DNA of 64,000 nt from Diplolepis rosae (lineage: Eukaryota > Arthropoda > Insecta > Hymenoptera > Diplolepididae): assembly GCA_030998225.1 (NCBI GenBank), contig JAPYXD010000250.1, forward strand, positions 620,001-684,000, written 5' to 3'. Shown here piece by piece: positions 14,933 through 39,201 of the stretch. The notes beneath the pieces are model-generated. The model was not told the origin of the DNA and made no database searches. It saw nothing but the letters and a program-made list of their open reading frames with translations. The position numbers and the translations under genes are program-made. The first letter of the stretch is position 1. Every line of letters begins with the position of its first letter.

Positions 14933-15270
14933 CATATGGCAATTTCAATAGATGAATGTAAATGAAGTGTTTGCTGATTTAAGAAAATACATAAATTGTA
15001 TGTGAATTTACACCTCAAACTTTTCTTGATATGAAGCTAAGTCGACAAACGGTTGCTAAAAAATAAAATACATTGAATACAATTTTTTGGAATTTAACAT
15101 CTTTTACATGACAATTCGTATGTGTCACGTCCCGCGACGCATTAGAATGTACTATAGGCATAGGCTAGGTCTAGAGAGAAATCTGGGGAAATTACTAAAA
15201 GAGAGAGAAAACCACCTATTGAAAAGAGAGGTATAACTACGTCACACGCAGCGGGAGACTGCGCAACGCG

Positions 15271-15298
15271 TGACGTCACCAAAAAATATAATATAAAA
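15271..15298 (+). promoter_or_regulatory. LTR promoter: CRE-like site and TATA box
   Basis: A perfect CRE/ATF palindrome TGACGTCA (15271-15278) lies 13 bp upstream of TATAAAA (15292-15298). Transcription would then begin near 15320-15325. The 3' LTR carries the same pair. The CRE suggests control by ATF/CREB-type bZIP factors, including stress-responsive ones; that is inference. Confidence 0.7.
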
Positions 15299-15742
15299 AG
15301 GACACGCCGCCAAGGGAAAACTAGTCTTGTGAGCAAAATTAAGTGCGGCAAATTTCTAAAATCTTAAAAGGATTCACAGCGTGAGATACGTGTTTAGTTC
15401 AGTTTTCCGAAGAAACGTGTCGTAAATTCTCTGATTGTACTTTCAATCTTTGAAAGGATCTTAGAGTCAGTGTAGAGTGAAATAACTATTCTTGTCCTCC
15501 TCACACCAGTGGGATATTTGTTTCTGTCTTCCTCACACCAGTGGGATACCTATTGCTGTCTTCGTCGCACCAGTGGAAGAATCTTTCTCTCTCCCTCACA
15601 CCTGTGAGGATCATTCATAAAAAAAGGGACTATTCACAACTCAACAAAGGTACCGAAAATTCTCTCTATTCTTTACCTATTCCCTGTGCCATTGTTTGAA
15701 TCATTGTAAAATTTTAACCTTGTTTATATCAGTGTTAATTTA

Positions 15743-15748
15743 AATAAA
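15743..15748 (+). terminator. Poly(A) signal in the 5' LTR
   Basis: AATAAA about 420 nt after the predicted start site. This would place the R/U5 border shortly downstream and make R unusually long, so promoter-proximal polyadenylation must be suppressed in the 5' LTR. Confidence 0.55.
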
Positions 15749-15853
15749 TTCAATTTGTATTACTTTACTAATCATTGTGTACTTTTCATTGACTTATCCT
15801 CATCCCTAAGAGAGGATCATTCGATCCTAACTTAAAACGAGGAATCTTCGATC

Positions 15854-15862
15854 AAAGTAAGT
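15854..15862 (+). promoter_or_regulatory. Candidate major splice donor in U5
   Basis: AAA|GTAAGT followed by AT matches the donor consensus except at the last exon base. It lies 28 nt before the LTR end, upstream of the primer-binding site. If used, all subgenomic mRNAs would share an R-U5 leader and join to the acceptors in front of the downstream genes. Foamy viruses likewise use a donor within the LTR transcript (R). Confidence 0.55.
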
Positions 15863-15899
15863 ATTTACGTACTTGTGACGTAACATACTTCCTTTTTTC

Positions 15900-15917
15900 T
15901 GGTGCATCGGCCGGGAA
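15900..15917 (+). promoter_or_regulatory. Primer-binding site, tRNA-Gly
   Basis: TGGTGCATCGGCCGGGAA is complementary to the 3' 18 nt (with CCA) of insect tRNA-Gly(GCC) as I recall that tRNA. It lies 14 nt downstream of the LTR end, separated by a pyrimidine-rich spacer; most retroelements have 0-5 nt here. Confidence 0.8.
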
Positions 15918-16792
15918 ACACAAGTCAATTGAAATTGAACACATTGGTTCTTAATAATAAATAAATAAATAAATAAATGATTATGAAATATTATTTCAAC
16001 TTTAAAACTTAAAATTTCAATAAAATAGATTTGTTAGATCACAAAGGGATTTGACCTTGAGGCTAACCTTAATGATTTAATAATCAGATCATTTCTTTGA
16101 AATTTTATAATTTATATAAATTGTTTAAAAATAAAATAAGTTTGAAAAATCACGCAGGGATCTGACCTTGAGGCTAACCTAAGTGATTAAGTAACTTATC
16201 TTATTTAAAAAGATATTCTAATTTGTTAACCAAGTTTTGATTTAAGTTAAAACAAACATAAAAAACAGAATATTTTTATTTGCAAAAAAAAATTTTTGTC
16301 CAAAGATTTGCACTTAAGTTAACTTTTCCAATATAATAAAAATAATTTATGAATATTTCGAATGATCATTATTATAAACAAATTTGTTTAATTGTTATAA
16401 ACAATTTATAAATAAATAAAATAAATTATTTTAATTTTACATAAAGGGCACATGCAGTTGGTAAAGAAAAATATTTTATTATTTTAAGAAATTTATTATT
16501 AAAAATTATAAATTTACAAACAATTGAGCGATTATTTATTTAATTTGAATATTTGAAATAATTATATTTTTATATCATTATTTTATTTTCAAATGACGAA
16601 ATACAAATTTCATTTCAAATTATATTGTTATTAAAAATAAATAAACAAATTAAAAATAAATTTTACTAATCTCATTTTATTTTTCTTAAAAAACAAATTT
16701 TATATATAGTTTTTTTATTGTTATAAACAAATTTAAAATAACAATAAACAATCAACGCTCAATACAAAATATTGTAAATTTATAATGACTCA
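15918..16792 (+). other. 5' leader of the giant element
   Basis: About 875 nt, very AT-rich, no ORF of note. A 23-nt motif beginning 'gggatttgaccttgaggct' occurs at 16046-16068 and again with one mismatch at 16157-16179, in otherwise low-complexity sequence; this could be an RNA packaging or structural element. A short upstream ORF (ATG at 16785, about 10 codons) overlaps the gag start in another frame. Confidence 0.5.
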
Positions 16793-17471
16793 ATGTCAAA
16801 ACCAAATATCCCTTTAGAATCTACCCCGAAAGTTATAACACGTAGTCAAGCTAAACACGATAGTCAGCTTGCAAAAATAGTAGATTTGAATCAAAAGGGT
16901 AATTTAAAAATAAAACCAATTAGAAATAGAGAATATTCAACTGATAATAAATGCCAAAATATCCCTGATCCAATCCCTACAGAACAAGAATTAGATAACA
17001 CTCTTAAGTTAGATGATTCAAGTTTAGACAAGACTCTAATTAATAATCAAAATATATCACGTGAAAATTCAGAAAAAACTAGCGGGTTTCATTCAAGTTT
17101 CTGTCCAGATTTAAGCATTGTAACAGGACCCAGTAATCAAGATCAAACTCTAACGAATGAATTATCTTATTTTGACGAATTCAATTTGCTAAGCTCAACA
17201 GTAATAACAGTAGATAATAAAACTTTGAAAGAAAGATTGGAAACCGCATTGGCACGCGAATCTATAATTAGTAACAACGATAGCGACGACGACAAAAGCG
17301 ACACAGAAGCCATAAATCAGGATAATCCCGTAAGAGTAAATAACGAAGAGATGGCCGTGGTCATACCCAACAGCCAGCAGATATCCTTACGCGACGCGCT
17401 AGAGGTGGTCCCATTGTTTGACGGAAGTAACCTCCCATTGTCACATTTTATTGAGGGTTGCATGGAGGCAA
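16793..17471 (+). pseudogene. gag: gag, 5' part (interrupted)
   Basis: ATG at 16793 opens the N-terminal 226 codons of Gag, which are cut by the nested CsRn1-type element at a GCAA site; the frame resumes at 23925. The protein is acidic and Ser/Asn-rich. It begins with a Lys-Val-Ile-Thr-Arg-Ser-Gln-Ala segment and reaches the capsid-like VVPLFDGSN motif near residue 206, common at the start of Ty3/gypsy capsid domains. In the occupied locus a stop (TAG at 17474) follows two codons into the LTR, leaving a truncated matrix-like protein. Before the nested insertion the two parts formed one reading frame. Confidence 0.85.
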
Positions 17472-17740
17472 TGTAGAGCTTTGGTTGGATACTTATATAT
17501 ATATCAGGATGGGAGTCTACTATCCCAGGTCGACATCGGTGGCAATAATATTCAAGACACCATTAACGATAAAAAGGTATTTATTTATTTAACAAACTTA
17601 ACAGTGACGTGTAAACGTCTTGTCGCAAGGAACAACTGGTCGTCAACTAGTGAATAATCATGGCCGCCGCTGCGGCATAGACTAGGTGTGCGCAAGATGG
17701 GGAACTCACTAAGTCCAATTACATTGGTTCGTTCCCTACA
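17472..17740 (-). repeat. 3' LTR of the nested element
   Basis: Identical by eye to 23652-23920. Next to it, 17741-17752 ('gtactccccc ct') is the complement of a polypurine tract AGGGGGGAGTAC, as expected beside a 3' LTR on the minus strand. Confidence 0.93.
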
Positions 17741-17752
17741 GTACTCCCCCCT

Positions 17753-18258
17753 GAGTGAGAGCGGTCATAAAGTATAAAACGAAGCAAGTCGAAATCGAAG
17801 TTTAAAGCTACCAGTGATAACAGTATAAGAAAAACAAAAAAAAAAAAAAACAAATGAAATTTACATTGCAAAAAGTGGAAATATTCCAACTAAATCAGTC
17901 GATTTTAATTTGCGAATTCAATTGCTAAAGACAAAATTAGTATAAAGGCAGGCCTAACCTAAAACTACCCGTTGTAGCAATATAAATAGTCGCAAGAACG
18001 ATGATTACAGTTGGGACTGAAATGTCATTATACAATTCATTACAAGAAAATTAATTTTTCTAATCAGACGACGGTAGAACATACTGATATTATCGCATAA
18101 GCGATGCACGCAAAAGTTTAACAATGCAAAAGAGCGTGAAAATAGTTGATCCAAAATTGAAGACGAGAGAGGAAGATACCAAGCTAATATCCAGACGTTT
18201 TATTTGACTTGGTTCTCGTCTGACGTCGTTCAATATGCGAGCAACATGCCCAAGCTAC
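17753..18258 (-). other. 3' untranslated region of the nested element
   Basis: About 500 nt between the pol stop and the polypurine tract. No ORF recognised; a 17-nt A-run lies near 17835. Confidence 0.5.
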
Positions 18259-19650
18259 CTACAAGAATGTTACTTTTTTACGTGGATATGTTCGCAATAC
18301 AGTTGGTGATTTGTCTGATTGAGAGAGCTGATCGATGTCATCGCGCATGAAAAATGCTGGTTTAATATTTTCGATAGATACATGACGAGGCACGCCATTA
18401 ACTTCTATTTCAAAAACTCTATCTGAAGTTTTGTTTAAAATCTTATGTGGGCCCGTATAAGGGCGTTCTAATGCTTTTTTAGCGTGGTCACGAAGAAATA
18501 CATGTGTAGAATTGTTTAAATCTTTAAAAACAAAGGCTTTTCGTTTATATTTATGCGCAACCGGGATTGGTTTGATGCGACGCATGTGCTCCCGGAATTC
18601 TTCAAGAAAAACATGCGGGTCAGGCGAGAAATCCTCAGGGAGGACAAACTCTCCAGGTATACGCAGAGTTGCACCGAAAACAAATTCTGCCGGAGACGCG
18701 CCGACGTCTAAAACATTAGATCTGAGACCAAGCAGTACAGTTGATAATGATCGTGACCATTCACGGTCAGAATGGCACATGATGGCCGCTTTCAGCGAGC
18801 GATGACACCGCTCAATCATACCGTTAGAAGCGGGATGGTAAGCGGTAGTGCGTATACGATTGCAACCAATCAACCGCAAAAGTGCCGTGAATAGCTGTGA
18901 TTCAAACTGGCTACCTTGGTCGGTTGTCAGAGTTTCTGGGGAACCGTACCGTGATACCCAGTTATCAAAGAATGCTCTGCAAACTGAAGGTGCTTCAATG
19001 TTTTGAAGAGGTACAGCCTCAGGCCAACGCGAAAAACGGTCGATGACCGTGAGGCAATACTTGAAACCATTACTAATGGGGAGTGGACCAACAATGTCCA
19101 TGTGAACATGGCGAAAACGACCATCCGGAGCTGAAAAACTTGATGGCAGTAAACGATTGTGCCGCGAAACTTTCGATTGTTGACATTCCGGACATGCCTT
19201 GCACCAATCGGAAATATCGCGACGCATCGACGGCCATACATATCGCTTACGGATGACACGATCCGTAACCTTTGCGCTAGGATGTGCTGGATGATGAAAC
19301 AAATTAAACACTCGTTCCCTGAGTGGAGATGGAATGACGGGACGTAGTGTTTCGCCAGTCATGTCACAATAAACAGATGTGTGTTCTGGACCCCATTGTA
19401 TTTTGCGGATGTTCAATGAGCATTCCGGATCGGTTATAAGTGCTTTGATCTCTTCGTCTTCGGTCTGATATTGTGCGAGTTCGATTAAACTAAACTCCGT
19501 GGGTACGCGTACGCTATCGACTCTGGATAACGAGTCAGCAACGACATTATCGTGGCCTGGCTGATATTGAATGTCGGTCGTAAATTGCGAGATGAAAGCA
19601 ATTTGTCGTTGCTGTCGTTGCAAGATTTTCTCAATTCGTTGTGAAAACAT
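18259..19650 (-). pseudogene. pol (3' part): CsRn1-type pol, RNase H tail and integrase
   Basis: A 463-codon frame starts abruptly with Met-Phe-Ser-Gln-Arg, inside RNase H. It continues with VVADSLSRV, the usual end of RNase H. The integrase follows: an HHCC zinc module (HHPAHPSAK ... CKACPEC, residues about 112-150), then the DDE core with HMDIVGPLP, TDQGSQFES and ASNGMIERCHRSL, and a basic C-terminus. Integrase inserts the cDNA into the genome. The integrase itself looks intact, but it is out of frame with the upstream pol ORF because of a deletion at about 19650, so it is not expected to be made from this copy. Confidence 0.88.
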
Positions 19651-21278
19651 GTAAGCTCGCGATCATAGGTGCTGTAATTACATTGCGCAGGAGAAAATTT
19701 GCGTGAGAAAAATGCTAATGGTTTCCACGAGTCGTCAAACCACTGCTCGAGCGATGCGCCCATGCCGAAATTAGAGGCATCAGTAACTAGGCGAGTCTTT
19801 GCGTCGAGTGCTGGATGAGATAAAAGAGTCGCGTTAGCTAAGTCTTGTTTGACTCTTTCGAACGCCGAGTCAGATTCAGTATCCCAAGGAATCAGTCTTT
19901 TGTCATTTTTTCGAGAATCACACAAAAATTTTTGGAGTGGAGCTTGGATTTCCGCGGCATGCTTCAAGTTTTTGCGATAGAAGTTGACCATTCCGAGGAA
20001 ACGGCGGAGTTCTACCATTGTTTTTGGCTTAGAATACTCGGTGATCGCACGAACTTTGTCTGGTGTAGGTCGACAACCTTCATGATTAATCCAATAACCC
20101 AAGAATTCCAGTTCGGTTTTGCCGAACTGACATTTATCGGGATTGATGCGGAGCGAAAAATCCTTCAAGCGTTGGAACATAATTTTAAGATGATCCTCAT
20201 GCTCTTCATGTGAAGAAGAAGCAATGAGAATATCATCTATATAGGCGAATACAAAATTGAGATCACCCAAGGCACGAAAGATGTAACGTTGGAAGGTTTG
20301 GCCAGCATTCCTAAGGCCGAAAGTCATAACCTGATACTCAAAAAGACCAAAAGGGGTTATAACGGCAGTTTTTGGGATATCATCGGCAGCGATAGGAATC
20401 TGGTGATATGCCATGAGCAAATCGAGCTTTGAAAAAATTTTCTTTCCCCGAAGCATTGAGGCAAAATCATAAAGGTTAGGTACGGGATACCTGTCCGGAA
20501 TAGTGATGGCATTTAAACGACGAAAATCGCCACAAACACGCCAGTCGCCATTTTTCTTCTTAATCATATGAATAGGAGTTGCCCAAGGACTACTAGAAGG
20601 TCGGCAAATTCCGTCTTCAACCATCTGCCTGAAAATTGCCTTGGCAGCCGTTAATTTTTCAGGGGAAAGTCGTCTCGCGCGATCGTGAACCGGTGGACCG
20701 GTAGTCAAAATGTGGTGGTGTATATCGACATTGAGGGTGGTATTACCCTGCTGTAAGGATGTAATAGTCGGAAAGGACTCCAGGATGTGTGAAAAAGCAT
20801 GTTCACGGCTGATGGTACTTAAACCGCAAACTAGTGCAGGCTTAAGAAAACCGAGAACACTAAAACCGGTGGTGGTATCTACTAAACGTGACTCGTGAAG
20901 ATAAGGAACCAGGTGGAAGTGAGCAAGCAAGTCTGCTCCTATTATAGGATAAGGGACTGCTGCTATGCAAAAGTTCCATTTAATACAGCGACGCAGATTT
21001 AAATTTAAAGTTATTGCACGCTCACCATAAGTGGCGACGCGTGAATCGTTGGCTGCGTATAAAACGAGGTCACAAGGACGGTTTTTCAAAATGGAGGGAC
21101 CGGCTGGAAACAGAGAAATGTCTGACCCTGTGTCGATGAGATAAATTAAACCACTTGAAATGTCCCGAATATGGAGACGCTTGGATCCGGAGGAGCCCAT
21201 ATCGATGGTCTCCGTACGAAAGGGCTGTGTTAGTTTTCCGGATTTGATAAAACTTTCCACGAACATGGCTGAGTGCAT
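19485..21278 (-). pseudogene. pol (5' part): CsRn1-type pol: protease, RT, truncated RNase H
   Basis: This overlaps gag by 49 nt in the -1 frame, so it is probably expressed by frameshifting. The protease active site is LIDTGSDISLF (residues about 47-57). Reverse transcriptase shows KLDLLMAYHQIP, TPFGLFEYQVMTFGLRNAG and YIDDILIAS (YIDD catalytic box). RNase H starts with TDASNFGMGASLEQ and runs to NYSTYDRELT, then goes out of frame: the segment that should carry the later catalytic Asp (TDHKPL-type) is missing and the ORF ends in unrelated residues. Identical LTRs with a defective pol suggest either mobilisation in trans or a deletion made during or after insertion. Confidence 0.9.
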
Positions 21279-22117
21279 TTTTTAGCACTTTTACCGAACC
21301 TTTGATGATAATAACAGCGACGTTGGGAACTCCTGCTGCGCGAGCGGTTACGAGGTTGAAAATTACTCGAACTGGAGCGGCCACGTGCTCGAGTAGCCAT
21401 TTTCAAATCACGGATATCGTTTGAAAGTCTCTCAAATTGCTTAGTCAAGATGTTAACCAGTGATGAAAAATGATCATTGGTTGCTGAAACCGAAGCAGTT
21501 TGGCTCGGAATATTTGAATGAGTCGATGTAGAAGCGACCTGGTAATTTAGAGGTTGTGATGCTTCAGAAACCTTATCAGCCAGGTTAGCTAATTCTTGGA
21601 GATCATCAACGTTGCTCAAGGCCAAAATCGCGCGTATTTGTGAGGGCATCTGTTCCAAGAATACATTCTTGATTACCGCGTCGGTACAATTTCCATCATT
21701 GAGTGCGCGAAGTCTAGTTAAAAGAAGAGAAGGCTTTCCTTCTGAAACAACTTCTCCTCTTAACAATTTGCGTAATCGCGTTTCAGCTGAAACCGAGAAA
21801 CTTTTAATAAGTTGATTTTTTATTTGCGAGTAGATATCCGCGGGTTTTGGCTCCAATTCCAAAATATGTTTGATATGTGGTATCAAATCATGGTCTAAAT
21901 TTGCAACTAAATAATCAGCTTTAGTTGATTCTAAGTTAATTCGCGCTTGGCGAAAAGAGGCTTCTATAATCACGAAAAATGATATTGGATCTTCGCGAAA
22001 AAATTTCGGAATTTTAGGTGTGCGATAAGCATCCGCGCGCTGATTCTCGATTAGAGCCAAGTTTTCAACCAACCTGGAGAGATCGCCCTCCTCCAGGGAC
22101 CTTCCGCCGGTTGCCAT
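21230..22117 (-). CDS. gag: CsRn1-type Gag
   Basis: Start chosen at the Met-Ala-Thr-Gly-Gly (22117); the open frame extends 45 codons upstream with a hydrophobic stretch that is probably untranslated leader. The protein has about 295 aa. A capsid-like region (KIPKFFREDPISFFVIIEA, residues about 30-48; LRKLLRGE near 116) leads to a Ser/Arg-rich basic tail and a zinc knuckle CYYHQRFGKSAKKCTQPC of CHCC type. Gag would form the particle shell and bind RNA. No break is visible. The stop overlaps the start of pol, consistent with -1 frameshifting. Confidence 0.88.
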   Translation of the reverse strand: MATGGRSLEEGDLSRLVENLALIENQRADAYRTPKIPKFFREDPISFFVIIEASFRQARINLESTKADYLVANLDHDLIPHIKHILELEPKPADIYSQIKNQLIKSFSVSAETRLRKLLRGEVVSEGKPSLLLTRLRALNDGNCTDAVIKNVFLEQMPSQIRAILALSNVDDLQELANLADKVSEASQPLNYQVASTSTHSNIPSQTASVSATNDHFSSLVNILTKQFERLSNDIRDLKMATRARGRSSSSNFQPRNRSRSRSSQRRCYYHQRFGKSAKKCTQPCSWKVLSNPEN

Positions 22118-23629
22118 TTTAATGGGTTTTAGATTTTGAAAGACTATATAAAATTGTTGTAGATATTCAGAGTACCAAAAATAAATGCAAGTTGATAAAA
22201 ATACAAGGACTAATGCCAGAAAGAGTGTAAAAATAATGATTTTTAATAACAAATTTAAATTTAAAGAAAGAAATCGACCGCGGAAAACTGTTTCTCAAAA
22301 TTCCAAGAAGTTAATACCCATAAAAAAAAAAATCCTTCTTAGTGAGCACGCCAAAATGCAATGAATTCTTCATGTTATAAATTGCAAAACTGAGTTCGAT
22401 TAATCAATTGAGCAAGGACATCGGTCAGCCATAAAGAAACGCTGCGAAAAATAAAAATTTTTATAAATACATTACATAATAAAATTTGTTAAAAATGTTG
22501 TTTAAAAATTCAAAGATAAGCAACATTAATTATCGAAATGTATCACTGGATAATACTTCGTTGATATAATTTAAAGTAGTAAAAATCATTAAATAAGTTA
22601 ATTCAGTCTTACAATTTTGGAGTAATAGCCTTGCGAAAATTTTCTTAAATTAATAAAAAACAAAATTTCATAAAATATAAATTATTTAATAAATTAAAGG
22701 CACATCGTTGAAAAAATTGGTGATAAGAAGTAAAAGTGTGAAAATGTATACGTTTGATATAAAATTTTGACTCGTTGAGTAAAAATAGATTCAAATAGAT
22801 CGTTAAAAAAAAAAAAATTGATTTGTAAGATATAAATAAATTCAAATAGGTCGTCATAAAATTAGACAAAATATCCAATCATTATAGTTAATATATCACA
22901 GATTATATCACAAATAGTGAAGTCAAGTTTTACATAATTGGTTGACGCTCGGAGTATTGTAAATCAGTATAAATTTGAAAAGGTGAAGTTTTGACAGTTA
23001 AATATAATCACAAGAAGTAATTATTAAAATTAGACAATATCATGAAGAGTTCTTCAAATTACTGTACAAAATTAATACAAATGGCTAGAAAAAGAATATA
23101 AATATAAAATCTAATTTCGAACTTGATGAAAAATATTAGATCGAATAAATACTACAGCGGTTAATTAGAATTTCGAGGCAAAGCTATAACATTGGAATCC
23201 AAATGGGCGAAGCGTAAACAATTTTGACCTTTTGTGTCAAAGAAATAATATTCGTCTGACACCAGAATTATCTTTGAATACAAGGAAGATTTAAAATAAA
23301 ATTTCAATATTCATTTTAAATTGAAATATAACTTAGCTTGGCGTATAAATGATGCTTAGTAGAATTCCTTCCAGATTGCGAAATCCAACAAGCCAGACAA
23401 AATTGCGTTGCTTAAAATTTGAAGATTGTACTGGGCGAAGTTAAACCTCAAATACTCCCATGGCGTCAATTTTTAGATGTAACCAGTTATAAGATGAATA
23501 GTTGACTGACTTTATATTTGTGAAATTGCTCCAACATCGTTCCTGATGTTAAAGTTTATCGTTTGCAAATTAAATGCCGAGAAGAGACGCCATTATTGTA
23601 ACCGGCGTCTTTTTCCTGGACATGATAGC
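22118..23629 (-). other. Long AT-rich leader of the nested element
   Basis: About 1.5 kb between the primer-binding site and gag, unusually long for this clade. No ORF is supported; a 77-codon Phe/Leu-rich frame at 22645-22878 reflects AT-rich composition. Confidence 0.5.
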
Positions 23630-23648
23630 AATCACGTCGGGGTCACCA
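23630..23648 (-). promoter_or_regulatory. Primer-binding site of the nested element, tRNA-Trp
   Basis: On the minus strand TGGTGACCCCGACGTGATT is complementary to the 3' end of insect tRNA-Trp as I recall it. It lies 3 nt from the 5' LTR. A tRNA-Trp primer is characteristic of CsRn1-clade elements. Confidence 0.85.
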
Positions 23649-23651
23649 CTT

Positions 23652-23920
23652 TGTAGAGCTTTGGTTGGATACTTATATATATATCAGGATGGGAGTCTAC
23701 TATCCCAGGTCGACATCGGTGGCAATAATATTCAAGACACCATTAACGATAAAAAGGTATTTATTTATTTAACAAACTTAACAGTGACGTGTAAACGTCT
23801 TGTCGCAAGGAACAACTGGTCGTCAACTAGTGAATAATCATGGCCGCCGCTGCGGCATAGACTAGGTGTGCGCAAGATGGGGAACTCACTAAGTCCAATT
23901 ACATTGGTTCGTTCCCTACA
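23652..23920 (-). repeat. 5' LTR of the nested element
   Basis: 269 bp, TGTAGGGAAC...CTCTACA on the minus strand; the same sequence as 17472-17740. Confidence 0.93.
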
Positions 23921-30246: not shown

Positions 30247-30528
30247 ATGGAACAAATTCATCGCAAACGCATAGATGATCTCATTGAAATAGTTCCCTGT
30301 TTTATCGACATGGTAGCTCTCTGGCCATACTTAATTCAAACTGGAATTTTTAAGAAAGACGACTGCAATATCCCCACATGGAACAGAAATCTAAACAATC
30401 CAGAAATATTAAAAGACATTTTTTCAACAATCAAAACAAGAGGACCGGACGCATACAAAAATTTAATTCTCAGTTTACGGCTATCAAATCACATTGTCAT
30501 AGCCGACATGTTGGATATAATGAACTAG
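30247..30528 (+). CDS. CARD-only protein
   Basis: 93 aa made up almost entirely of one death-fold domain of the CARD type. The visible pattern is a first helix RKRIDDLIEIV, a LWPYLIQTGIFKKDDCN helix pair, and the signature ILKDIFSTIKTRGPDAY followed by LILSLRLSNHIVIADML. The RGP-x-AY motif with a following hydrophobic helix is typical of the CARDs of initiator caspases of the Dronc/caspase-9 type. There is no catalytic domain, so it would act as a decoy or adaptor. The likely partner is the Dark(Apaf-1)/Dronc apoptosome and the likely effect is blocking of caspase activation; the sequence does not show whether it inhibits or activates. It overlaps the 5' extension of the next frame but not its likely start. 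It probably derives from a host gene (inference). Confidence 0.8.
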   Translation: MEQIHRKRIDDLIEIVPCFIDMVALWPYLIQTGIFKKDDCNIPTWNRNLNNPEILKDIFSTIKTRGPDAYKNLILSLRLSNHIVIADMLDIMN

Positions 30529-30645: not shown

Positions 30646-30647
30646 AG

Positions 30648-32678
30648 ATGGGATTACGAGGCTTCCTTTTGGCACTGCTCACTTGCAACTTCAACTATAT
30701 AACAACAGTCTACGCCATCATAGGATTCGATTGCGGTTCAAATCAATCAAATATTACGACATTATCTTTACTAGAGGTAGGAGAATGTGATCTACCTCGA
30801 TCTCAAGTACATGTTGAAAGAACTTATATACAACTTTTACAATTAACTGGATTTTCAAATACAAAAGTAATACAATGCAAAATAGAAATTCGACGCGCCA
30901 TCTCTCATTGTGGTATGCATTCTCACAGTTCCATAGTAGCAAATGGCCACAGTGAATATATACATGATGTTACACGAGATCAATGTAATCAAATGCACAC
31001 AATAGGAACATTTTTAGTAACCCCTTCTCTTCAGATATCAAAGTTAAAAGTAAATGAAACTTCATTTCATAGCGTTACTTTAGCAGGTTCTGTAACACCT
31101 AATGGAGACTGTACTGGTACACAATTTTCTGACCCATACGGAACATGGAATAATGTCGTAGTCCAAGCAATATTCAAAATAACTTTACAAGAACATTACG
31201 CGACTATTCATTTAAATTCAAATAAAATTCAATTAGGATCTGGAATAATATGCACACTTTCAGACACATTCTGTACTGACGTAGAATATGGACAAACATT
31301 CTGGGATACATTACCTAATGACGTATGTAATTTTAACAAATATGAAATTATTTATGAAGGACCAGCAAATAAGACCTATGACAACACGACAGACAATTAT
31401 GAAACCTTTTATTCTTTAACGACTGAGGATATATCTTTCGTACTAGCTGAAAAAACAAGAAAACCAGTTTGCAGTTACGTTTTAATACAAACCGAACATC
31501 CAAAATTATTAATTTTTGAAACCAGACCTGGGAATTCATTTTTAGAAAATAAACATTTAGAAGTTCAAAATATGGACATTTTCACATACGTCAATTCTAA
31601 ATTTATATATGTAGAACGACACATACGCACTGAAGTAAATAGACTTTATCACGGTGTTCTTACTCAACGATGCATACTTGAACAGCAAGTTTTCAGAAAT
31701 ACATTAACCTTAGCAACCCAATCACCAGACGAATTTGCATATCATTTAATGAAAGGCCCAGGATATATGTCAGTAATTGCAGGAGAAGTAGTACATATCG
31801 TAAAATGTATACCGGTTGAAGTAAAATATCGCAAAACTGAAGAATGTTATCTACAACTACCAATATTTAGAGGAAATCAATCCTTTTTCCTTTCTCCACG
31901 AACTCATATATTAACAAAATCAGGTATCCAAACAAATTGCAATTCTTTCCTTCCACCAATGTACCTTTTTGGAGAAACCTGGTACAAATTACTTCCAAAT
32001 CCTGTCGAATCCATAGCACCAACTATAGTTAAACCTCTCACAAAAGCAACCTGGAAATACACAAATCCTTCATCCTTAGCAACAAGTGGCATTTATTCTC
32101 AATCTGATCTTGATAAACTGCGAGATCATATTATGTTTCCAGCAGAAAAACCAATGATTCTAAATTCTTTAGCTAGAGAAATAACAGGACATCCAACTAT
32201 TAATCAAGGAATATCATTAACGAATTTATTTAATGAAGATGTAATTGATAAAATTGCTGAATCCGCATGGGGTAGATTTTGGACAATTTTTACAAGTTTT
32301 GGAACTACTAGTGCAGGCCTAATTGGATTAATAATAATAATTAGAGGGATTAAATTGATAGCTGATACCATTATTCATGGATATGCGCTACACAGATTAT
32401 TTGGATGGTCTCTCCATCTACTAGGCGCCTTCTGGGATTCGGTCACTAACCTCTTATTACACTTAGGTACCCATCGACCTTCTGGACCTCCTGCTGAGGG
32501 TCATCAAGAACTGCTAACACCTTCAGCACCACAAAGCTCGAAAGAGGCACCTAAAAGTCCATCGTATTACGCAAACACTACTTCAGGTAAAGATCACAAT
32601 AATACAAACACAACTCTTTATCCTCACTCTGAATTAAAAGAAGAACTTAGTAGAACCCACTACTCTATCCAAATCTAA
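30648..32678 (+). CDS. env1: Envelope 1: chuvirus-like glycoprotein
   Basis: 676 aa from the Met directly after the acceptor. The frame is open for 90 codons upstream, but that part overlaps the CARD gene and is probably not used. A signal peptide (GLRGFLLALLTC, about 1-23) is followed by a Cys-rich ectodomain with several N-x-S/T sites. It contains GFDCGSNQSNITTLSLL near the mature N-terminus, YIQLLQLTGF, the CGMHSH segment and TPNGDCTGTQFSDPYGTW. A membrane span lies at about residues 552-575 (SAGLIGLIIIIRGIKLIA), with a cytoplasmic tail of about 100 aa ending in Pro/Ser-rich sequence. The pattern resembles chuvirus (Mononegavirales relative) glycoproteins, which insect LTR elements are known to have captured. 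It would mediate entry and membrane fusion. The frame looks intact. Confidence 0.8.
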   Translation: MGLRGFLLALLTCNFNYITTVYAIIGFDCGSNQSNITTLSLLEVGECDLPRSQVHVERTYIQLLQLTGFSNTKVIQCKIEIRRAISHCGMHSHSSIVANGHSEYIHDVTRDQCNQMHTIGTFLVTPSLQISKLKVNETSFHSVTLAGSVTPNGDCTGTQFSDPYGTWNNVVVQAIFKITLQEHYATIHLNSNKIQLGSGIICTLSDTFCTDVEYGQTFWDTLPNDVCNFNKYEIIYEGPANKTYDNTTDNYETFYSLTTEDISFVLAEKTRKPVCSYVLIQTEHPKLLIFETRPGNSFLENKHLEVQNMDIFTYVNSKFIYVERHIRTEVNRLYHGVLTQRCILEQQVFRNTLTLATQSPDEFAYHLMKGPGYMSVIAGEVVHIVKCIPVEVKYRKTEECYLQLPIFRGNQSFFLSPRTHILTKSGIQTNCNSFLPPMYLFGETWYKLLPNPVESIAPTIVKPLTKATWKYTNPSSLATSGIYSQSDLDKLRDHIMFPAEKPMILNSLAREITGHPTINQGISLTNLFNEDVIDKIAESAWGRFWTIFTSFGTTSAGLIGLIIIIRGIKLIADTIIHGYALHRLFGWSLHLLGAFWDSVTNLLLHLGTHRPSGPPAEGHQELLTPSAPQSSKEAPKSPSYYANTTSGKDHNNTNTTLYPHSELKEELSRTHYSIQI

Positions 32679-32688: not shown

Positions 32689-33426
32689 ATGTCGCATGTT
32701 CCTTTTACAACCTTACTAAACAAAATTATTCAACAAAGAGGAGATCCACCCCTAATTTATGAGATACTCATTGAACAAACCAATAATAATGAATGTCTAT
32801 TTCACGTTAATTTACAATATAAACATTTTATAATAATGAATAGTGGCAAAGATAAAGAAAATGTAAAGCAAAAGGTAGCACAAAATTTATATAATGCCTT
32901 AATTAATGAATCAAAGGAAACAAATCAAAACGTCCAATCAAACTCTATTAGTAAAAATTGCAAAAAATTAAACGAAATTTGCACTGAAAATAAATTTGAG
33001 TATCCAAAATATACAGTATTACGAATAAAAACCTCATCAAAAGACTCAACATACATAGCAATTTGTTTCATTAATAACATTAAACAAATAGGAATAGCAA
33101 ACTCAATAAAAACAGCTAAGGATTTTGCTGCCATAAAAGTTATTAATTCTCTTTCGCATAAAGACGAGAAATGTGAACTACGTTTGATAAACTCACTAGA
33201 ACATTTGCATGTAACAATTCAAGAATCATCTATAAACGATCCAAAACCTTCAACGAGTAGCCAAATAACAAAACCTATTACTTCAAATAACAATCGTGAT
33301 AAAAATACAAATTCATATAAAATGAAAACAAATAATAATCATACTGCATCATCTTTCTCTACGAAAAGCTTTAAAAAATGTTTTAAATGCGGATATAGAC
33401 CTCCCAACCAGTACAATAAATTCTAA
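32689..33426 (+). CDS. Protein with two dsRBD-like domains
   Basis: 245 aa. The first dsRBD-like module (about 6-72) shows TTLLNKIIQQRGDPPLIYEI, then strands around FHVNLQYKHFIIMNSG, then a helix VKQKVAQNLYNAL. The second (about 92-160) shows KLNEICTENKFEYPKYTVL, a strand YIAICFINNI, then IKTAKDFAAIKVINSL. Both follow the alpha-beta-beta-beta-alpha order of double-stranded RNA-binding domains, but the basic KKxAK that contacts RNA is only partly kept, so one or both may act in dimerisation. A Ser/Asn-rich tail ends with CFKCGYRPPN, perhaps half of the zinc knuckle found in its relatives. It starts 10 nt after the env1 stop. Likely role: binding dsRNA or RNAi proteins (inference). Confidence 0.75.
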   Translation: MSHVPFTTLLNKIIQQRGDPPLIYEILIEQTNNNECLFHVNLQYKHFIIMNSGKDKENVKQKVAQNLYNALINESKETNQNVQSNSISKNCKKLNEICTENKFEYPKYTVLRIKTSSKDSTYIAICFINNIKQIGIANSIKTAKDFAAIKVINSLSHKDEKCELRLINSLEHLHVTIQESSINDPKPSTSSQITKPITSNNNRDKNTNSYKMKTNNNHTASSFSTKSFKKCFKCGYRPPNQYNKF

Positions 33427-33533: not shown

Positions 33534-34049
33534 ATGGGATTTTTAAATCATGTAGAAATTTTAAGAAACTTCACGATAAAATATGGACTGCCGTTACCGC
33601 AATATACAGTCTATCCTGATCCGAATTCGAAAACAAACTCATTTTTTCTCGCACAAATTAATATAAATGAACATTTCGTTATACAAGCCGGCCCTACTAG
33701 TGAATTAGCAGAAAATAGAGCAGCTTTAAAATTATTATTACTACTAATAAGATCATATGATCTCTGCGACGAAAAATTTTATAATAATGATGATAAAAAA
33801 AGGCAAAAAACCAAAAATCAAAGTATTCAAACCGATCCAAGACCAAAATTAATACCTTGGGAAAATTCCTGTAGATTTTGTAACACTCAAATGCATGCTA
33901 CAAAAGAGTGCCGTAGACGAAATATTTTTAAGGTAGACAAATCAACCCAATTCCCCCCTCCAGTTCCACCAAGAAACTCCTCAACATTTAGTAGACTTTT
34001 TTCCCCTTTTCTCCAAAAAACTTCTAGACCTAAATCCAACCATATGTAA
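33534..34049 (+). CDS. dsRBD plus zinc-knuckle protein, copy 1
   Basis: 171 aa. A dsRBD-like module occupies about 4-72: helix HVEILRNFTIKYGLPLPQYTV, strands with FFLAQININEHFVIQAG, and helix ELAENRAALKLLLLLI. The second helix lacks the KKxAK lysines, so RNA binding may be weak. A CCHC knuckle, C-RF-C-NTQM-H-ATKE-C (about 119-132), follows a basic linker, then a proline-rich PPPVPPR motif resembling an SH3 ligand. The frame is open upstream of the chosen Met, but the domain begins right after it. The same dsRBD-knuckle arrangement recurs in the last gene (37567), so these are probably duplicates of one ancestral gene. Confidence 0.75.
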   Translation: MGFLNHVEILRNFTIKYGLPLPQYTVYPDPNSKTNSFFLAQININEHFVIQAGPTSELAENRAALKLLLLLIRSYDLCDEKFYNNDDKKRQKTKNQSIQTDPRPKLIPWENSCRFCNTQMHATKECRRRNIFKVDKSTQFPPPVPPRNSSTFSRLFSPFLQKTSRPKSNHM

Positions 34050-34092: not shown

Positions 34093-34108
34093 CCTTCCGA
34101 GAAGCCTA

Positions 34109-35890
34109 ATGAATTTCCTTAATCAACCAGCATCCAGAGTGTATTTAATTTTAATTCCACTCCTTTTCTCCAAAGCAGAAAAATACTTCATAGACTCACA
34201 ATTTTCTCATTCTTCAGGGATTTATTTTGAACCAATTTCAAAAGTTCGTCTTTTTTCTGAAAAATATCATTTTATATCTTATATCGATATCTTTCAGCCA
34301 GACGTACTTAAATACAAAATAATAGATTTCTCACATAAATTATATGAATATTGCATACTCTCAAATATTGCCAATAATTGTAATTTATACGATCATCAGA
34401 CACAACTTGATTTTATAGAACAACGCATCAACTATTTTCTTGAAGAAATATCATTTATATCTAGACAAGCTCGTAATATCACGAATATTTCTAACACTAA
34501 TGATCCATTCTTGCAACAGATACAAAAAGTACTTTTAGAATTAAGAATGAGAAATGAAACCTCCCTTTACTGGCCCAAAGAAAATTTATTTCTACTTCCT
34601 AATCCATTTTTCCAAAAAGTTACAAATCTTTCTTCAAAACTTGACAACATTATGACCTACAAAAAATGGCATAATTCTCAAAAAGATCCAAATATTCACC
34701 TATATCGAATATTAGCAGCAAATTGGCTTAAAGACCTGCATGAAATTTCTCAATCTTTTCTTTTACTCCTTGACCAACTTACAGAAGCTATTACTCATGC
34801 CGCAACTAATTTATGGCACCCTATGCTACTTCCTGATACCTTCTTAGACTTCAAATCCAACAAAGAAGACCCACACCTTTCAACATCCCTTTTTTCTATG
34901 GTCCTTCCATTTTCTAAAATACAATACTTCTTATTCGATAAGTACTTGATTTTTATTATGACTATACCAATCCCATCTGCTGAAGAATTTCAATTATTTA
35001 AACCACATCCAATTCCAATACATCTCGATTTTAATACTGACGTAATTTCCTCTATTTACATAAAACCTCAAAATTCTTATCTCGCTATTTCTTCAAATAA
35101 CCAATCATACTTTATAACAAATGAAAATTTCCTCAATGCATGTTATCAAAATGGATTCCAAACATTTTGTCACCCACCAAGATCTATATCTAACATCGAT
35201 AACAATCCTATTTGTGAAACATCAATGTTTCTAAATTCAGAACCATACAAGTGTAAAATATTCATCAGTTTTAGTGAATATCCCTTTCTAACACCATTGC
35301 AATTTCATCATGGATGGCTATACTCAACAATTTTCCCCCGACAAATTTTCTTATCATGTCGAAAAAACTCTAAGACCTTAATCACACTCCAAGGAATATG
35401 AATTTTGCAAACAAAATCAGGTTGCAATCTAGATTCATCAACTCCATATTACCATCTTCAAAACCATTTGAATATAATGGATAATTCAATTCCAGTCAGC
35501 AAATCAACTACTTCCCTTGCTATAATTTCACCATTCTTATATAATATTTCCATTCAAGAGCCTCACTTACTAAAAAAGGTATTACTTCTTCTTCAGCAAA
35601 AAGAAGACATGCCATTATCAATCTTCGAAAACCATGTCTTTATCCTTACAAAATATGCAAACATTCAAAAAATCATTCCATCAATTTTTATTTCTAGTGC
35701 ACATAAATTAACATTAGCACTAATCTTTATCACTTTACTTATGATTACAATTTTAGGATTATTACTATTGAAAATTCAAAAAATATCTAAAAAAATAAAC
35801 AAAACGCCAACACGTATAGAACTTATACAAAAAACTCCTTTAAGCTCAGTGACAAAACCTTTACTGACCGACTTGACGTTTAACTTTTGA
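34109..35890 (+). pseudogene. env2: Envelope 2: errantivirus/baculovirus-F-type, one in-frame stop
   Basis: A single frame of about 593 codons is broken only by TGA at 35399-35401. The upstream 430 aa start with a hydrophobic signal-like segment (VYLILIPLLFSK) and continue with GIYFEPISKVRL, a Tyr-Ile-Asp-Ile motif near 50 and paired cysteines. A coiled-coil-like helical region and a Cys-rich C-terminal half follow. The downstream 161 aa contain a membrane anchor (LTLALIFITLLMITILGLLL) and a short basic tail. This layout matches the class I fusion proteins of gypsy-type errantiviruses, themselves related to baculovirus F. No clear furin site was seen. With the stop, the product would be secreted and lack the anchor unless the UGA is read through. 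Confidence 0.72.
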
Positions 35891-36227: not shown

Positions 36228-36635
36228 ATGATACCAACTCCAAGTGAACCTATTGTTAACCATCTTGGACCAGTAGACGGTGTATGTCCGCAAGACTATC
36301 CGATAGCATACGCGCACTTATTACAGAGTTATTGCTTCGAATTAGAACCCTCAACATTGTTTTTATATTATAATCACCAAACCACAAAAAGATATTGCCA
36401 ATTCTGTTTCGAGAAATTAGATCAGGAAACTCAAAATAACTGTGAATTTTTTACATCATGGCATTCCATTTGTAAATTGGAATGCATATATATGAATTGT
36501 TACGGTTGTCAAGAACTATTAATTACTCCGCGAAAAAGAGCAGCTGATTGTAGAGAATGTATCGAACAATATTTAAATTATAAATTCGAAATTAGTCAAG
36601 GAAACGAAGTTCTAGTAGAAAATACCCCTGCATGA
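36228..36635 (+). CDS. Cys-rich zinc protein 1
   Basis: 135 aa, family not recognised. The cysteines form CQFC, then after 30 residues CYGC, then after 13 residues CREC, with extra Cys/His between them (NNCEFF, SWHSICKLEC). The last part, CQELLITPRKRAADCREC, is closely matched in the neighbouring gene (36775) by CNTQIFYMRQRADLCVTC, so the two are paralogues with at least two zinc sites, perhaps treble-clef-like. No signal peptide or membrane span; an acidic C-terminus. Small nuclear regulators with paired CxxC motifs are common among viral accessory proteins, but no function can be assigned. Confidence 0.7.
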   Translation: MIPTPSEPIVNHLGPVDGVCPQDYPIAYAHLLQSYCFELEPSTLFLYYNHQTTKRYCQFCFEKLDQETQNNCEFFTSWHSICKLECIYMNCYGCQELLITPRKRAADCRECIEQYLNYKFEISQGNEVLVENTPA

Positions 36636-36774: not shown

Positions 36775-37206
36775 ATGCTGCCCCAAGAAATCGAAACAAT
36801 CGAAGCAGAAGAAGTTCGAGCAAGCGAGCAGGATGTTCAGCCGTATTTTGAAAATCAATTATGGTCAGAATACTGCTGCACAACCCTGGTCGAGAATTTT
36901 TACATGAATGTTCTCGAAAAAAAACTTGTTTGCGAGGATTGTTGGATGACAGAACTCAGCTTTTTCGAAACCGAAGTAACATTACCCGTCCGAATAGACC
37001 ACATAGTTACTAAAGACTTATATTGTACATTAAAACTATCTAGCCTCGACTGCTCCATTTGCAATACACAAATTTTTTACATGCGGCAAAGAGCAGATTT
37101 ATGTGTAACTTGTGCCGAACGTGTAATTCATTTATACCAACAAGAAGCACTGTATAACGACGTCGATTCCGAAACATCGACTATTATTTATAACAACGAC
37201 GAATAA
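36775..37206 (+). CDS. Cys-rich zinc protein 2
   Basis: 143 aa, paralogue of the preceding gene. It has an acidic N-terminus (ETIEAEEVRASEQD), then EYCCTTL, LVCEDCW, YCTLKLSSLDCSIC and RQRADLCVTC. The spacing CxxC-36-CxxC-13-CxxC closely follows that of protein 1 (30 and 13), with the final RAD-x-C-x2-C conserved. The tail is acidic (NDVDSETSTIIYNND). It is probably soluble and zinc-binding. Retention of two diverged open copies next to each other suggests they have distinct jobs, for example transactivation or modulation of the host (inference). Confidence 0.7.
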   Translation: MLPQEIETIEAEEVRASEQDVQPYFENQLWSEYCCTTLVENFYMNVLEKKLVCEDCWMTELSFFETEVTLPVRIDHIVTKDLYCTLKLSSLDCSICNTQIFYMRQRADLCVTCAERVIHLYQQEALYNDVDSETSTIIYNNDE

Positions 37207-37535
37207 AAATAATAAATCAAAACATATTTTTTATTATTCTTTTTTCTAAATATAAACAATATCTATTAGTAACTTTTGTTAAAAAATTTTCCCTTTTAAT
37301 TTTTATTCGTTGTTTAAAATCATATTTCATATACACCACTACTTCTTCCTTAACCGCTATAATGTAACGACAAACCTTAATAAATTAAAATATTCTAAAA
37401 AACGGACCACTGTTTTCTCTGCATGAAATATCTCTTTGAGTTAGGAAACGCGGAAAGTGAATATATCAACAAACACAAAATTATTACAAAAAAACTAACT
37501 AATTTTAGAATTTCAATAAATTCAATCATCAACTC
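37207..37535 (+). other. Non-coding spacer
   Basis: AT-rich, no ORF supported; a minus-strand open stretch at 37395-37631 overlaps the next gene and is a chance frame. Confidence 0.5.
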
Positions 37536-37537
37536 AA

Positions 37538-37556
37538 ACAGGTAATTCTTTTGCAG
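37538..37556 (+). promoter_or_regulatory. Splice acceptor for the last dsRBD gene
   Basis: 'acaggtaattcttttgcag', AG at 37555-37556, 10 nt before the ATG. Confidence 0.55.
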
Positions 37557-37566
37557 ATCAAAAACA

Positions 37567-38016
37567 ATGGCCTTGCAGACAAGAGACCTATCGAAAGGCA
37601 CTGCTGTACAAGTTTTAAACGAGATAAGCATTGAGTATGATTTCTCCGAACCTTCATATATTGTAAAATCGCTTGGAAAACACCAAGAACTGCCACCATT
37701 CCAAGCAACTTGCGAAATCTTTAAAAATAAAATAACTTTCTCTTGTATTGGGGAACCAGCCCCTCAAAAAAAGTCTGCAAAGCAAAATGCAGCATCTAAA
37801 CTCTTGGAAATGCTTTCCACAAGATATGTATTTTTAGAAGAAATGAAAGAAAAAAGCTTAATCCCAGAAACGAGAATTTTCAAAATAACTGATGAAATCA
37901 GTAAAGAAACCTTACAAAAATGGACCAACTCTTGTGAAAGGTGTTTTCAAAGAGGGCATTTAGCTCATAACTGCCGCAATCCTTTACGTAATAGAAAATA
38001 TAAAAATAATTCTTAA
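37567..38016 (+). CDS. dsRBD plus zinc-knuckle protein, copy 2
   Basis: 149 aa, the clearest dsRBD in the window. Helix 1 is AVQVLNEISIEYDFSEPSYI (about 12-31), beta strands lie around FQATCEIFKNKITFSCIG, and helix 2 is QKKSAKQNAASKLLEML (about 67-83) with the intact KKxAK motif that contacts the dsRNA phosphates. A helical linker leads to a CCHC zinc knuckle, C-ER-C-FQRG-H-LAHN-C (about 127-140), then a basic tail. It is likely a cytoplasmic dsRNA-binding protein. Viral stand-alone dsRBD proteins commonly suppress Dicer-dependent RNAi, and this is the best candidate for such a role here (inference). It is the last gene before the polypurine tract. Confidence 0.88.
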   Translation: MALQTRDLSKGTAVQVLNEISIEYDFSEPSYIVKSLGKHQELPPFQATCEIFKNKITFSCIGEPAPQKKSAKQNAASKLLEMLSTRYVFLEEMKEKSLIPETRIFKITDEISKETLQKWTNSCERCFQRGHLAHNCRNPLRNRKYKNNS

Positions 38017-38428
38017 AAATCTACATTATGAAATTACGTTACAGTTTTATATATTATTATATTACATGATATTTATAATTTACGAATATGAAATAAAAAT
38101 TATTGATGTATTTAGTTATATAAGAAAAAATCATATGTAACCTTATGTTAAGTTCATACTATTTCAAAAAAAAACTATGTAATTATTTATAACAAAAAAA
38201 TTATAATATTTAGATAATATAAATTTTTATGACATCAAAAAAAAAAAAAAAAAATCGATATTGGAATCAAATAGTCAAATGCAAAAAATACAAATTGTAA
38301 AAGAGACCCCGAAATGAATGTTGGTTATTACGTCAGAAATAGAAATTCAATGTATCTTCAAAAACATTAACGAATGTATTCTTCTTCCGAAGATTCGATC
38401 GCGGATGCTTCACCCCCGCGCTCGAACT
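38017..38428 (+). other. 3' untranslated region of the giant element
   Basis: AT-rich with an A-run near 38240. Becomes GC-rich just before the polypurine tract. No ORF supported. Confidence 0.6.
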
Positions 38429-38439
38429 AGGGGGGGAGG
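38429..38439 (+). promoter_or_regulatory. Polypurine tract
   Basis: AGGGGGGGAGG directly abuts the TG of the 3' LTR. It is the primer for plus-strand DNA synthesis. Confidence 0.93.
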
Positions 38440-39201
38440 TGTCACGTCCCGCGACGCATTAGAATGTACTATAGGCATAGGCTAGGTCTAGAGAGAAATC
38501 TGGGGAAATTACTAAAAGAGAGAGAAAACCACCTATTGAAAAGAGAGGTATAACTACGTCACACGCAGCGGGAGACTGCGCAACGCGTGACGTCACCAAA
38601 AAATATAATATAAAAAGGACACGCCGCCAAGGGAAAACTAGTCTTGTGAGCAAAATTAAGTGCGGCAAATTTCTAAAATCTTAAAAGGATTCACAGCGTG
38701 AGATACGTGTTTAGTTCAGTTTTCCGAAGAAACGTGTCGTAAATTCTCTGATTGTACTTTCAATCTTTGAAAGGATCTTAGAGTCAGTGTAGAGTGAAAT
38801 AACTATTCTTGTCCTCCTCACACCAGTGGGATATTTGTTTCTGTCTTCCTCACACCAGTGGGATACCTATTGCTGTCTTCGTCGCACCAGTGGAAGAATC
38901 TTTCTCTCTCCCTCACACCTGTGAGGATCATTCATAAAAAAGGGACTATTCACAACTCAACAAAGGTACCGAAAATTCTCTCTATTCTTTACCTATTCCC
39001 TGTGCCATTGTTTGAATCATTGTAAAATTTTAACCTTGTTTATATCAGTGTTAATTTAAATAAATTCAATTTGTATTACTTTACTAATCATTGTGTACTT
39101 TTCATTGACTTATCCTAATCCCTAAGAGAGGATCATTCGATCCTAACTTAAAACGAGGAATCTTCGATCAAAGTAAGTATTTACGTACTTGTGACGTAAC
39201 A
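38440..39201 (+). repeat. 3' LTR of the giant element
   Basis: 762 bp, one substitution and one single-base indel from the 5' LTR by eye. Contains the same CRE/TATA promoter and donor, and a poly(A) signal at 39059-39064. TATG follows as target duplication. Confidence 0.95.
39059..39064 (+). terminator. Poly(A) signal in the 3' LTR
   Basis: AATAAA in the position equivalent to 15743-15748 of the 5' LTR; the expected site of transcript 3' end formation. Confidence 0.65.

Follow-up and report, generated by a model that had tools for sequence, protein, structure and literature searches.

How does a Ty3-type long terminal repeat (LTR) element come to carry eight genes downstream of pol, and what might these genes do for it? 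The question is raised by positions 15123-39201 of a 64,000-nucleotide stretch of Diplolepis rosae DNA (contig JAPYXD010000250.1), which we refer to as the window. We observe here a single insertion with a defined gene set, whose order is conserved and whose genes are constrained, and which has other copies with near-identical LTRs. In our judgement this 17.6-kb element, with gag-pol followed by eight ordered genes under purifying selection, is quite probably a complex retrovirus of the infectious type, with extra genes predicted to act against apoptosis and RNA interference (RNAi).

A single insertion of 17.6 kb

The stretch from 15123 to 39201 is a single LTR-element insertion on the plus strand. 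The paired LTRs (763 and 762 bp, with TG..CA ends) differ by one mismatch and one gap, and a TATG target duplication stands on both outer sides. Joined without the element, the flanks align through the junction to an empty-site paralogue elsewhere in the window, with identity at 524 of 552 aligned bases and 45 gap columns, of which six fall at the junction; the stretch as a whole thus arrived in a single event. Its length of 24,079 bp, less a nested element (17472-23920) and the duplication made by that element, comes to 17,626 bp. Four other full-length copies in the same genome measure 17,629, 17,635, 17,692 and 17,632 bp, and every one has its 4-bp duplication; 17.6 kb is therefore the true element size. 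Their LTR pairs differ by 1, 7, 2 and 5 changes (gaps counted), and the four copies look young. In copy L026 (L053-L054; lineage A, see below) both LTRs are 794 bp long, against the usual ∼762 bp: this is therefore an LTR variant that is being copied.

Between 30001 and 38439 we counted nine plus-strand open reading frames (ORFs) that start with ATG and span at least 93 amino acids, where 200 dinucleotide shuffles gave 0.155 on average and 2 at most; the minus strand of the same interval holds none of that length. These nine ORFs are the eight genes downstream of pol, with env2 counted as two parts (430 and 137 amino acids). The features, with E values or bit scores of their Pfam matches, are as follows; dsRBD denotes a double-stranded-RNA-binding domain.

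15123..15885, plus strand: 5' LTR, direct repeat of 38440-39201, with TATG before it
15900..15917, plus strand: putative primer-binding site, in the sequence starting 14 bases past the 5' LTR
16793..17471, plus strand: gag, first part; a one-frame ORF up to the nested insertion
17472..23920, minus strand: nested Ty3-type LTR element, a later insertion and not part of the family (LTRs, GCAA duplication, reverse transcriptase, RNase H and integrase, DUF7041)
23930..25111, plus strand: gag, second part, with CCHC zinc knuckle (zf-CCHC 21.5 bits, cut-off 20.8)
25042..27849, plus strand: pol, with protease motif, reverse transcriptase and RNase H (RVT_1 1e-35, RT_RNaseH 8e-39)
27725..30001, plus strand: pol, linker and integrase, in another frame in the window copy (Integrase_H2C2 6e-21, rve 5e-13)
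30247..30528, plus strand: CARD protein, 93 amino acids (database relatives; Pfam CARD matches of family members)
30648..32678, plus strand: env1, fusion glycoprotein of Monjiviricetes type (PF24664, E 2e-246 on frame 30378-32678)
32689..33426, plus strand: dsRBD1, with two double-stranded-RNA-binding motifs (dsrm 2e-10, two stretches)
33534..34049, plus strand: dsRBD2, with a CCHC-like knuckle (dsrm 5e-4, 21.1 bits, below the 23-bit cut-off)
34109..35401, plus strand: env2, first part, baculovirus F-type envelope, with a stop at its end in the window copy (Baculo_F 6e-18)
35402..35890, plus strand: env2, second part, with a hydrophobic stretch (frame of the first part; no Pfam match)
36228..36635, plus strand: cysteine-rich protein 1 (relatives; seven cysteines kept in the lineages and in the paralogue)
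36775..37206, plus strand: cysteine-rich protein 2, paralogue of protein 1 (CxxC pairs in common with it)
37567..38016, plus strand: dsRBD3, with CCHC zinc knuckle (dsrm 9e-7, 29.9 bits, cut-off 23; zf-CCHC_3 4e-5, below cut-off)
38429..38439, plus strand: polypurine tract, a purine run abutting the 3' LTR
38440..39201, plus strand: 3' LTR, direct repeat of 15123-15885, with TATG after it
49545..50097 (approximate), plus strand: empty-site paralogue of the target (alignment across the joined-flank junction)

The stretch assigned as primer-binding site resembles what we take to be the 3' end of tRNA-Gly. By sequence, pol is of Ty3 type, both in its order of protease, reverse transcriptase, RNase H and integrase and in its reverse transcriptase, RNase H and integrase families. 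Among solved relatives, Ty3 entries rank first (332 and 331 bits), followed by an 'enzymatic polyprotein' (226 bits) that is presumably from a caulimovirus; the retroviral Gag-Pol entries listed score at most 134 bits, far below Ty3, the best of them being, we assume, from a murine-type retrovirus. The frame at 25042..27849 overlaps gag in another reading frame and contains a DTG motif, on which we base the presumed protease. Within the linker between RNase H and integrase (27803-28400) lie two AT-hook-like motifs, under the Pfam cut-off, and an acidic repeat; such a linker could bind chromatin or steer integration.

The window copy itself carries three lesions: the nested element interrupts gag, integrase is out of frame with RNase H, and a stop divides env2. 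The nested element, with 270-bp LTRs that are 100% identical and a GCAA target duplication, sits inside gag and is no family trait, because none of the four other full-length copies is long enough to contain it. The end of RNase H and the start of integrase share one frame in 12/12 informative pieces (of 17 pieces in all, 5 are uninformative; 3 of the 12 carry a stop or break at another place), which rules out a programmed frameshift at this place. Programmed readthrough of the env2 stop, a candidate given that the two parts share a frame, is likewise ruled out: the stop is found in 0/16 other copies examined, and the parts form a single frame in several of them. Other copies carry lesions of their own, and the lesions of the window copy look like no trait of the family.

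A preliminary description of this locus had claimed a 17.6-kb LTR element with eight ORFs past pol, and the LTRs, the TATG duplication, the empty site, the four copies of the same size and the excess of ORFs all agree with it. Its intact LTR pair and gag-pol hold in part: the LTRs do pair, with two changes between them, but this copy is broken in gag, pol and env2. The contrary outcome that it had named, accessory ORFs arriving as separate insertions with their own target duplications, does not apply, the genes lying inside the LTRs and the empty site showing no such insertions.

Lineages in the host genome and constraint on the genes

Are the extra genes a property of this copy or of a family? 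We searched the host genome (757.7 Mb, 428 contigs) with env1 and obtained 2273 places, which are first-look candidates and not a copy count. All 68 scored matches lie above the family cut-off and cover no less than profile positions 9-619 of 653; 62 have no internal stop. From these 68 we picked 20 3' halves that cover the subfamilies, a choice that favours long env1 frames. Nineteen of the 20 are collinear, some with genes missing, interrupted or outside the piece, in the order integrase, CARD, env1, dsRBD1, (dsRBD2), env2, cysteine-rich 1, (cysteine-rich 2), dsRBD3, (LTR), and 15/20 contain all of CARD, dsRBD1, env2, cysteine-rich 1 and dsRBD3.

An unrooted env1 tree resolves lineages A (window copy, L024-L027), B (L019, L021, L022), C (L014, L020, L028), D (L009-L011, L015, L016), E (L012, L013, L017), F (L018) and S (L023). 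Among A to E, mean identity of the integrase runs from 97% (A-B) down to 73% (C-D), and that of the downstream proteins covers 25-73% for env2, 34-73% for dsRBD3 and 46-89% for CARD. The CARD frame is 92 or 93 amino acids long in one listed copy of each of lineages A-F. Matches to dsRBD2 occur in lineages A-C only, lineage E having at that place a 105-amino-acid frame with a very weak dsRBD match; cysteine-rich 2 is seen in A, B and D.

Lineage S is the most distant (env1 52%), and none of its four copies (L023, L045-L047) has a gene past env1, save one unshared 176-amino-acid frame. In L023, L045 and L047 integrase and env1 stand too near each other to leave room for a CARD gene (L046 was read less far upstream), and the conserved block terminates in CA in each of the four copies. 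Being the most distant, lineage S looks like a simple sister lineage, and acquisition of the accessory genes by the complex lineages is then the simpler account, on a tree without a root. About 5 kb downstream of env1 in L023, and in the same orientation, we also noted a pol-like frame (L023:84-1397, minus strand) that would belong to a second copy or a tandem element.

Protein databases yielded 53 relatives of the CARD protein and 34 of cysteine-rich 1 at E≤10, and 36 of dsRBD1 at an E cut-off of 0.01, of which 35/53, 13/34 and 4/36, respectively, cover 95% of the query. All come from ENA, in a listing that holds open frames only, and kinship among them was ignored in the protein-level tests; no relatives of the element were found in IMG/VR and prokaryote genomes. 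Some database frames are fusions of neighbours and keep the gene order of the element (integrase-CARD, CARD-env1, env1-dsRBD1, dsRBD1-dsRBD2 and dsRBD1-env2).

We estimated the ratio of nonsynonymous to synonymous substitution rates (dN/dS) with 500 codon bootstraps, taking the window copy (lineage A) and L022 (lineage B) as the main pair and excluding dsRBD3 comparisons with L014, whose match is dsRBD2 and hence a paralogue. In the main pair dN/dS is 0.09 for integrase, 0.27 for CARD, 0.17 for env1, 0.31 for dsRBD1, 0.11 for dsRBD2, 0.12 and 0.15 for the two parts of env2, 0.12 for cysteine-rich 1 and 0.14 for dsRBD3, cysteine-rich 2 being saturated; values of at least 1 arose in 6/500 bootstraps for CARD and 0/500 for each other gene. 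Within lineage C, L020 and L028 give 0.40 for dsRBD1, 0.31 for dsRBD2, 0.35 for env2, 0.27 for cysteine-rich 1 and 0.25 for dsRBD3. The accessory genes are under purifying selection between lineages, and dsRBD1 is the least constrained.

These comparisons bear out the description of a Ty3-type lineage with two envelopes besides its CARD, dsRBD and cysteine-rich genes, seen in the lineage of the window copy and in four more, and two of the checks that had been proposed, gene order in other copies and dN/dS of the accessory ORFs (0.11-0.31 in the main pair), came out in its favour. The adverse case that it had foreseen, copies lacking the accessory ORFs, is mostly absent; the four lineage S copies do represent it.

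The synonymous distance (dS) changes along the main pair: from 0.15 in both integrase and env1 it goes through 0.21-0.27 in CARD and dsRBD1 and 0.7 in dsRBD2 to 1.1-1.9 in env2, cysteine-rich 1 and dsRBD3, a roughly tenfold rise. Nucleotide identity to L022 is patchy, at 95-99% in 30701-32200 (env1), 84-97% upstream and 55-92% downstream. Together the rise and the patchiness suggest a mosaic of 5' and 3' parts with different histories, of the kind that template switching would leave, so that the A-B pair is likely mosaic through recombination, and lineages would swap 3' cassettes during reverse transcription. A locally higher synonymous rate could instead produce the rise, and accessory genes do show higher dS in more distant pairs too.

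Proteins encoded downstream of pol

The CARD protein was assigned through its family. Pfam CARD is matched at E≤1 by 27 of 34 aligned members (best 1.3e-5); the lineage E member reaches 30.9 bits, over the cut-off of 23.9, and the window copy's own sequence, taken alone, 14.5 bits, under it. A profile of nine diverse members, searched against PDB, finds Dronc first (E 0.0011) and CED-3 next (0.011), and the first ten matches are all caspases (tenth, E 0.098); the window sequence alone matched no CARD in PDB. Six helices are predicted, and 18/18 Foldseek matches of the model, which is weak, are CARD entries or designs on the template 1cy5, itself, as we assume, a CARD. By sequence comparison, then, the element's CARD is closest to the CARDs of initiator caspases (Dronc, CED-3, caspase-9), and because Dronc leads these matches, a decoy for the apoptosome is the likeliest predicted role of the protein.

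In the host genome 37 of 61 CARD matches exceed the Pfam cut-off, one of them probably a host gene; among 14 control genomes the same search gave a match in one, and none over the cut-off. Setting the 61 against 16 of the 68 env1 matches, we found seven adjacent. For a possible host origin of the CARD, five odd-framed matches were examined: four are the element's CARD, and the fifth, L058 (G000 C284:24095300-24095700), is an open frame that matches CARD, is unlike the element's version and is probably an exon of a host gene. Host Dronc and Dark were not found in this examination of genomic CARD matches.

Two unrelated fusion glycoproteins are encoded. We place the start of env1 most likely at 30648: the first ATG of the frame would make env1 overlap the CARD gene, and in other lineages the gene begins at the equivalent place. 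Searched against PDB, env1 gave chance matches only. Pfam assigned no baculovirus F-type match to env2 of lineage D. On the plus strand the env2 region (34100-36100) has only 8-10% G and 19-24% C, a GC skew of about -0.45.

The alignment of dsRBD2 with dsRBD3 covers both the dsRBD and the knuckle, so that the two look like paralogues. The second helix of dsRBD3 begins with what we take to be a KKxAK-like motif. This protein matches a plant Dicer dsRBD (E 0.0014), and dsRBD1 has weak matches to Loquacious, R2D2 and TARBP2 (E 0.011 to 0.88). A viral precedent is provided by IIV-6 340R, a 23-kDa dsRBD protein described as binding long double-stranded RNA and small interfering RNA and as suppressing Drosophila RNAi (PMC4231766); because of it, RNAi suppression is the first hypothesis for the dsRBD proteins, and they are likely suppressors. 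A profile of the cysteine-rich protein, searched against PDB, returned nothing meaningful.

Around the element, the flanks (5900-15100 and 39200-63000) are rich in dispersed repeats, which often share 90-96% identity and several of which have large internal palindromes; the element's target is one such dispersed repeat. At 60211-61596 about four 339-bp tandem units, 99% alike, each contain a minus-strand tRNA-like sequence (ARAGORN Ala-GGC; Rfam tRNA, 56 bits), and the array is possibly a tRNA-derived satellite. An RNase H fragment of another Ty3-type element lies at 2548-3015 on the minus strand.

Interpretation and comparison with known systems

How could such a gene set serve one element? 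It is the two fusion glycoproteins, and they only, that point to infectious enveloped particles, which would have two entry machines or two host-cell ranges; the role in counter-defence is predicted purely from domains. By taking up the CARD of Dark, the apoptosome protein of the host, the CARD protein would exclude Dronc, as a CARD-only decoy. The dsRBD proteins, with or without knuckle, would coat small RNAs as well as element RNA that is double-stranded or antisense, and so defeat Dicer-2 and the loading of Argonaute, and the cysteine-rich pair may bind zinc and regulate transcription or a host factor. More tentatively, and at slightly less than an even chance, we propose a Ty3-derived genus of complex retroviruses independent of Retroviridae, with two unrelated entry proteins, a Dronc-decoy CARD, a dsRBD-knuckle family that jams either RNAi or the production of PIWI-interacting RNA (piRNA), recombination of 3' cassettes as in modern viruses, and very recent germline infection.

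Several results weigh against the retroviral interpretation. The window copy has its three lesions, and lineage S (4 copies) lacks genes past env1. Some dN/dS values are high: for CARD, 0.74 in L020-L028 (at least 1 in 152/500 bootstraps, not different from 1), 0.99 in L014-L020 and 0.69-0.77 in lineage D pairs (one pair 0.28); for dsRBD1, 0.56 in L014-L020 and 0.50-0.69 in window-L009 and window-L018; and in L014-L028, 0.67 for dsRBD1, 0.58 for dsRBD2, 0.60 for env2 and 0.63 for cysteine-rich 1. Might the ORFs then be remnants, passenger genes drifting in an ordinary errantivirus-like retrotransposon? The lesions and the close pairs near 1 would fit, as would database relatives covering under 95% of the query (18/53 for CARD, 32/36 for dsRBD1, 21/34 for cysteine-rich 1), for part of which contig ends may be the explanation. 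However, once copies have inserted, close pairs are expected to give values near 1, and order and open frames are kept at accessory identities of 25-58% between lineages, where dN/dS is well below 1; nine long ORFs stand against 0.155 expected. We therefore regard drift as very improbable. A composite of separate insertions (a retroelement with jingchuvirus and baculovirus-like endogenous viral elements), or an assembly artefact, has practically no probability: two envelope types of different viral origin do lie near each other and a nested element is present, but the single empty site, the four 17.6-kb copies elsewhere with their own duplications and the shared order in 19/20 halves rule it out.

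The other alternatives accept the element and assign its genes differently. RNA export or packaging is the main rival for the dsRBD proteins: the extra genes would handle element RNA, the dsRBD-CCHC proteins as Rev-like or nucleocapsid-like factors and the cysteine-rich pair as transactivators, as in vertebrate complex retroviruses. Knuckles of CCHC type on dsRBD2 and dsRBD3 fit RNA handling, eight genes past pol would require both spliced and unspliced RNA, and the Caenorhabditis elegans LTR element Cer1 is described as having a protein for genomic RNA export (PMC10309623). This account leaves unexplained a CARD whose closest solved relatives are caspases, and three dsRBD proteins are in our judgement an unusual route to an export factor; we consider it rather unlikely, though the most serious of the rivals. 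Less probable again is a CARD protein that promotes death or signalling by nucleating a CARD assembly, perhaps so that cells die or fuse when virus is released. CARDs can seed filaments, and the fold matches of the weak model include MAVS filaments and CARD9; the best sequence relatives are nonetheless caspases, and an element inherited through the germline would gain little by killing its cell.

Errantiviruses are normally about 7-9 kb long, and the element is about twice that length. Those described (gypsy, ZAM and relatives; Metaviridae) share with it Ty3-type gag-pol, LTRs and an F-type envelope, here env2, which is described as their standard envelope and third ORF (PMC12992720). Whereas they have three ORFs (gag, pol and one env) in that account, the element has eight genes past pol and encodes, beyond the F-type envelope, an unrelated fusion glycoprotein, a CARD protein, three dsRBD proteins and a pair of cysteine-rich proteins. 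Mosquito gypsy elements with type III fusion glycoproteins are also of Ty3 type with a glycoprotein shared with RNA viruses, and the portion of the report consulted mentions neither accessory genes nor a second envelope (PMC13172572); lineage S (L023, L045-L047) looks similar to that type. Anakin likewise carries a jingchuvirus-type (chuvirus) glycoprotein inside its LTRs, as env1 is here (PF24664), but its pol is described as BEL/Pao and not Ty3 (PMC7642597), and Troyka, as described, is a different lineage with other termini (PMC12440569). In Hymenoptera and Coleoptera, Gypsy-type repeats were reported near jingchuvirus-type glycoproteins, with no clear Gypsy capture in the part of that work consulted (PMC10084718); to this question of 2023 the present locus adds a well-bounded Ty3 element. 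In the literature searched we found no LTR element described with two unrelated fusion proteins, CARD or dsRBD genes and no complex insect retrovirus, a key survey (Chary and Hayashi, eLife 108449) lying outside the comparison. IIV-6 340R and DCV 1A are small viral dsRBD suppressors of RNAi, 340R being described as needing a region beyond its dsRBD (PMC4231766). The element departs from the accounts of these two in that a single retroelement encodes three dsRBD proteins, and two of the three carry a knuckle.

Vertebrates have CARD-only decoy proteins, bare CARDs of ∼90 amino acids that, like the protein here, have no effector domain; the element's CARD differs in being borne by a retroelement and of the Dronc/CED-3/caspase-9 type. 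Vertebrate complex retroviruses (lentiviruses, spumaviruses and deltaretroviruses) carry regulatory and accessory genes beyond gag-pol-env, and accessory genes directed against host defence are their hallmark. The element also keeps accessory genes beyond gag-pol-env, in another reverse transcriptase lineage (Ty3 332 bits, best retroviral entry 134); Pfam named no vertebrate-retrovirus accessory family in its proteins, no direct homology test having been made. If our interpretation is true, the locus offers concrete candidates for the resistance of an endogenous retrovirus to RNAi or piRNA silencing and to apoptosis in the germline, and the lifestyle of the complex retroviruses arose twice, once in a lineage derived from Ty3.

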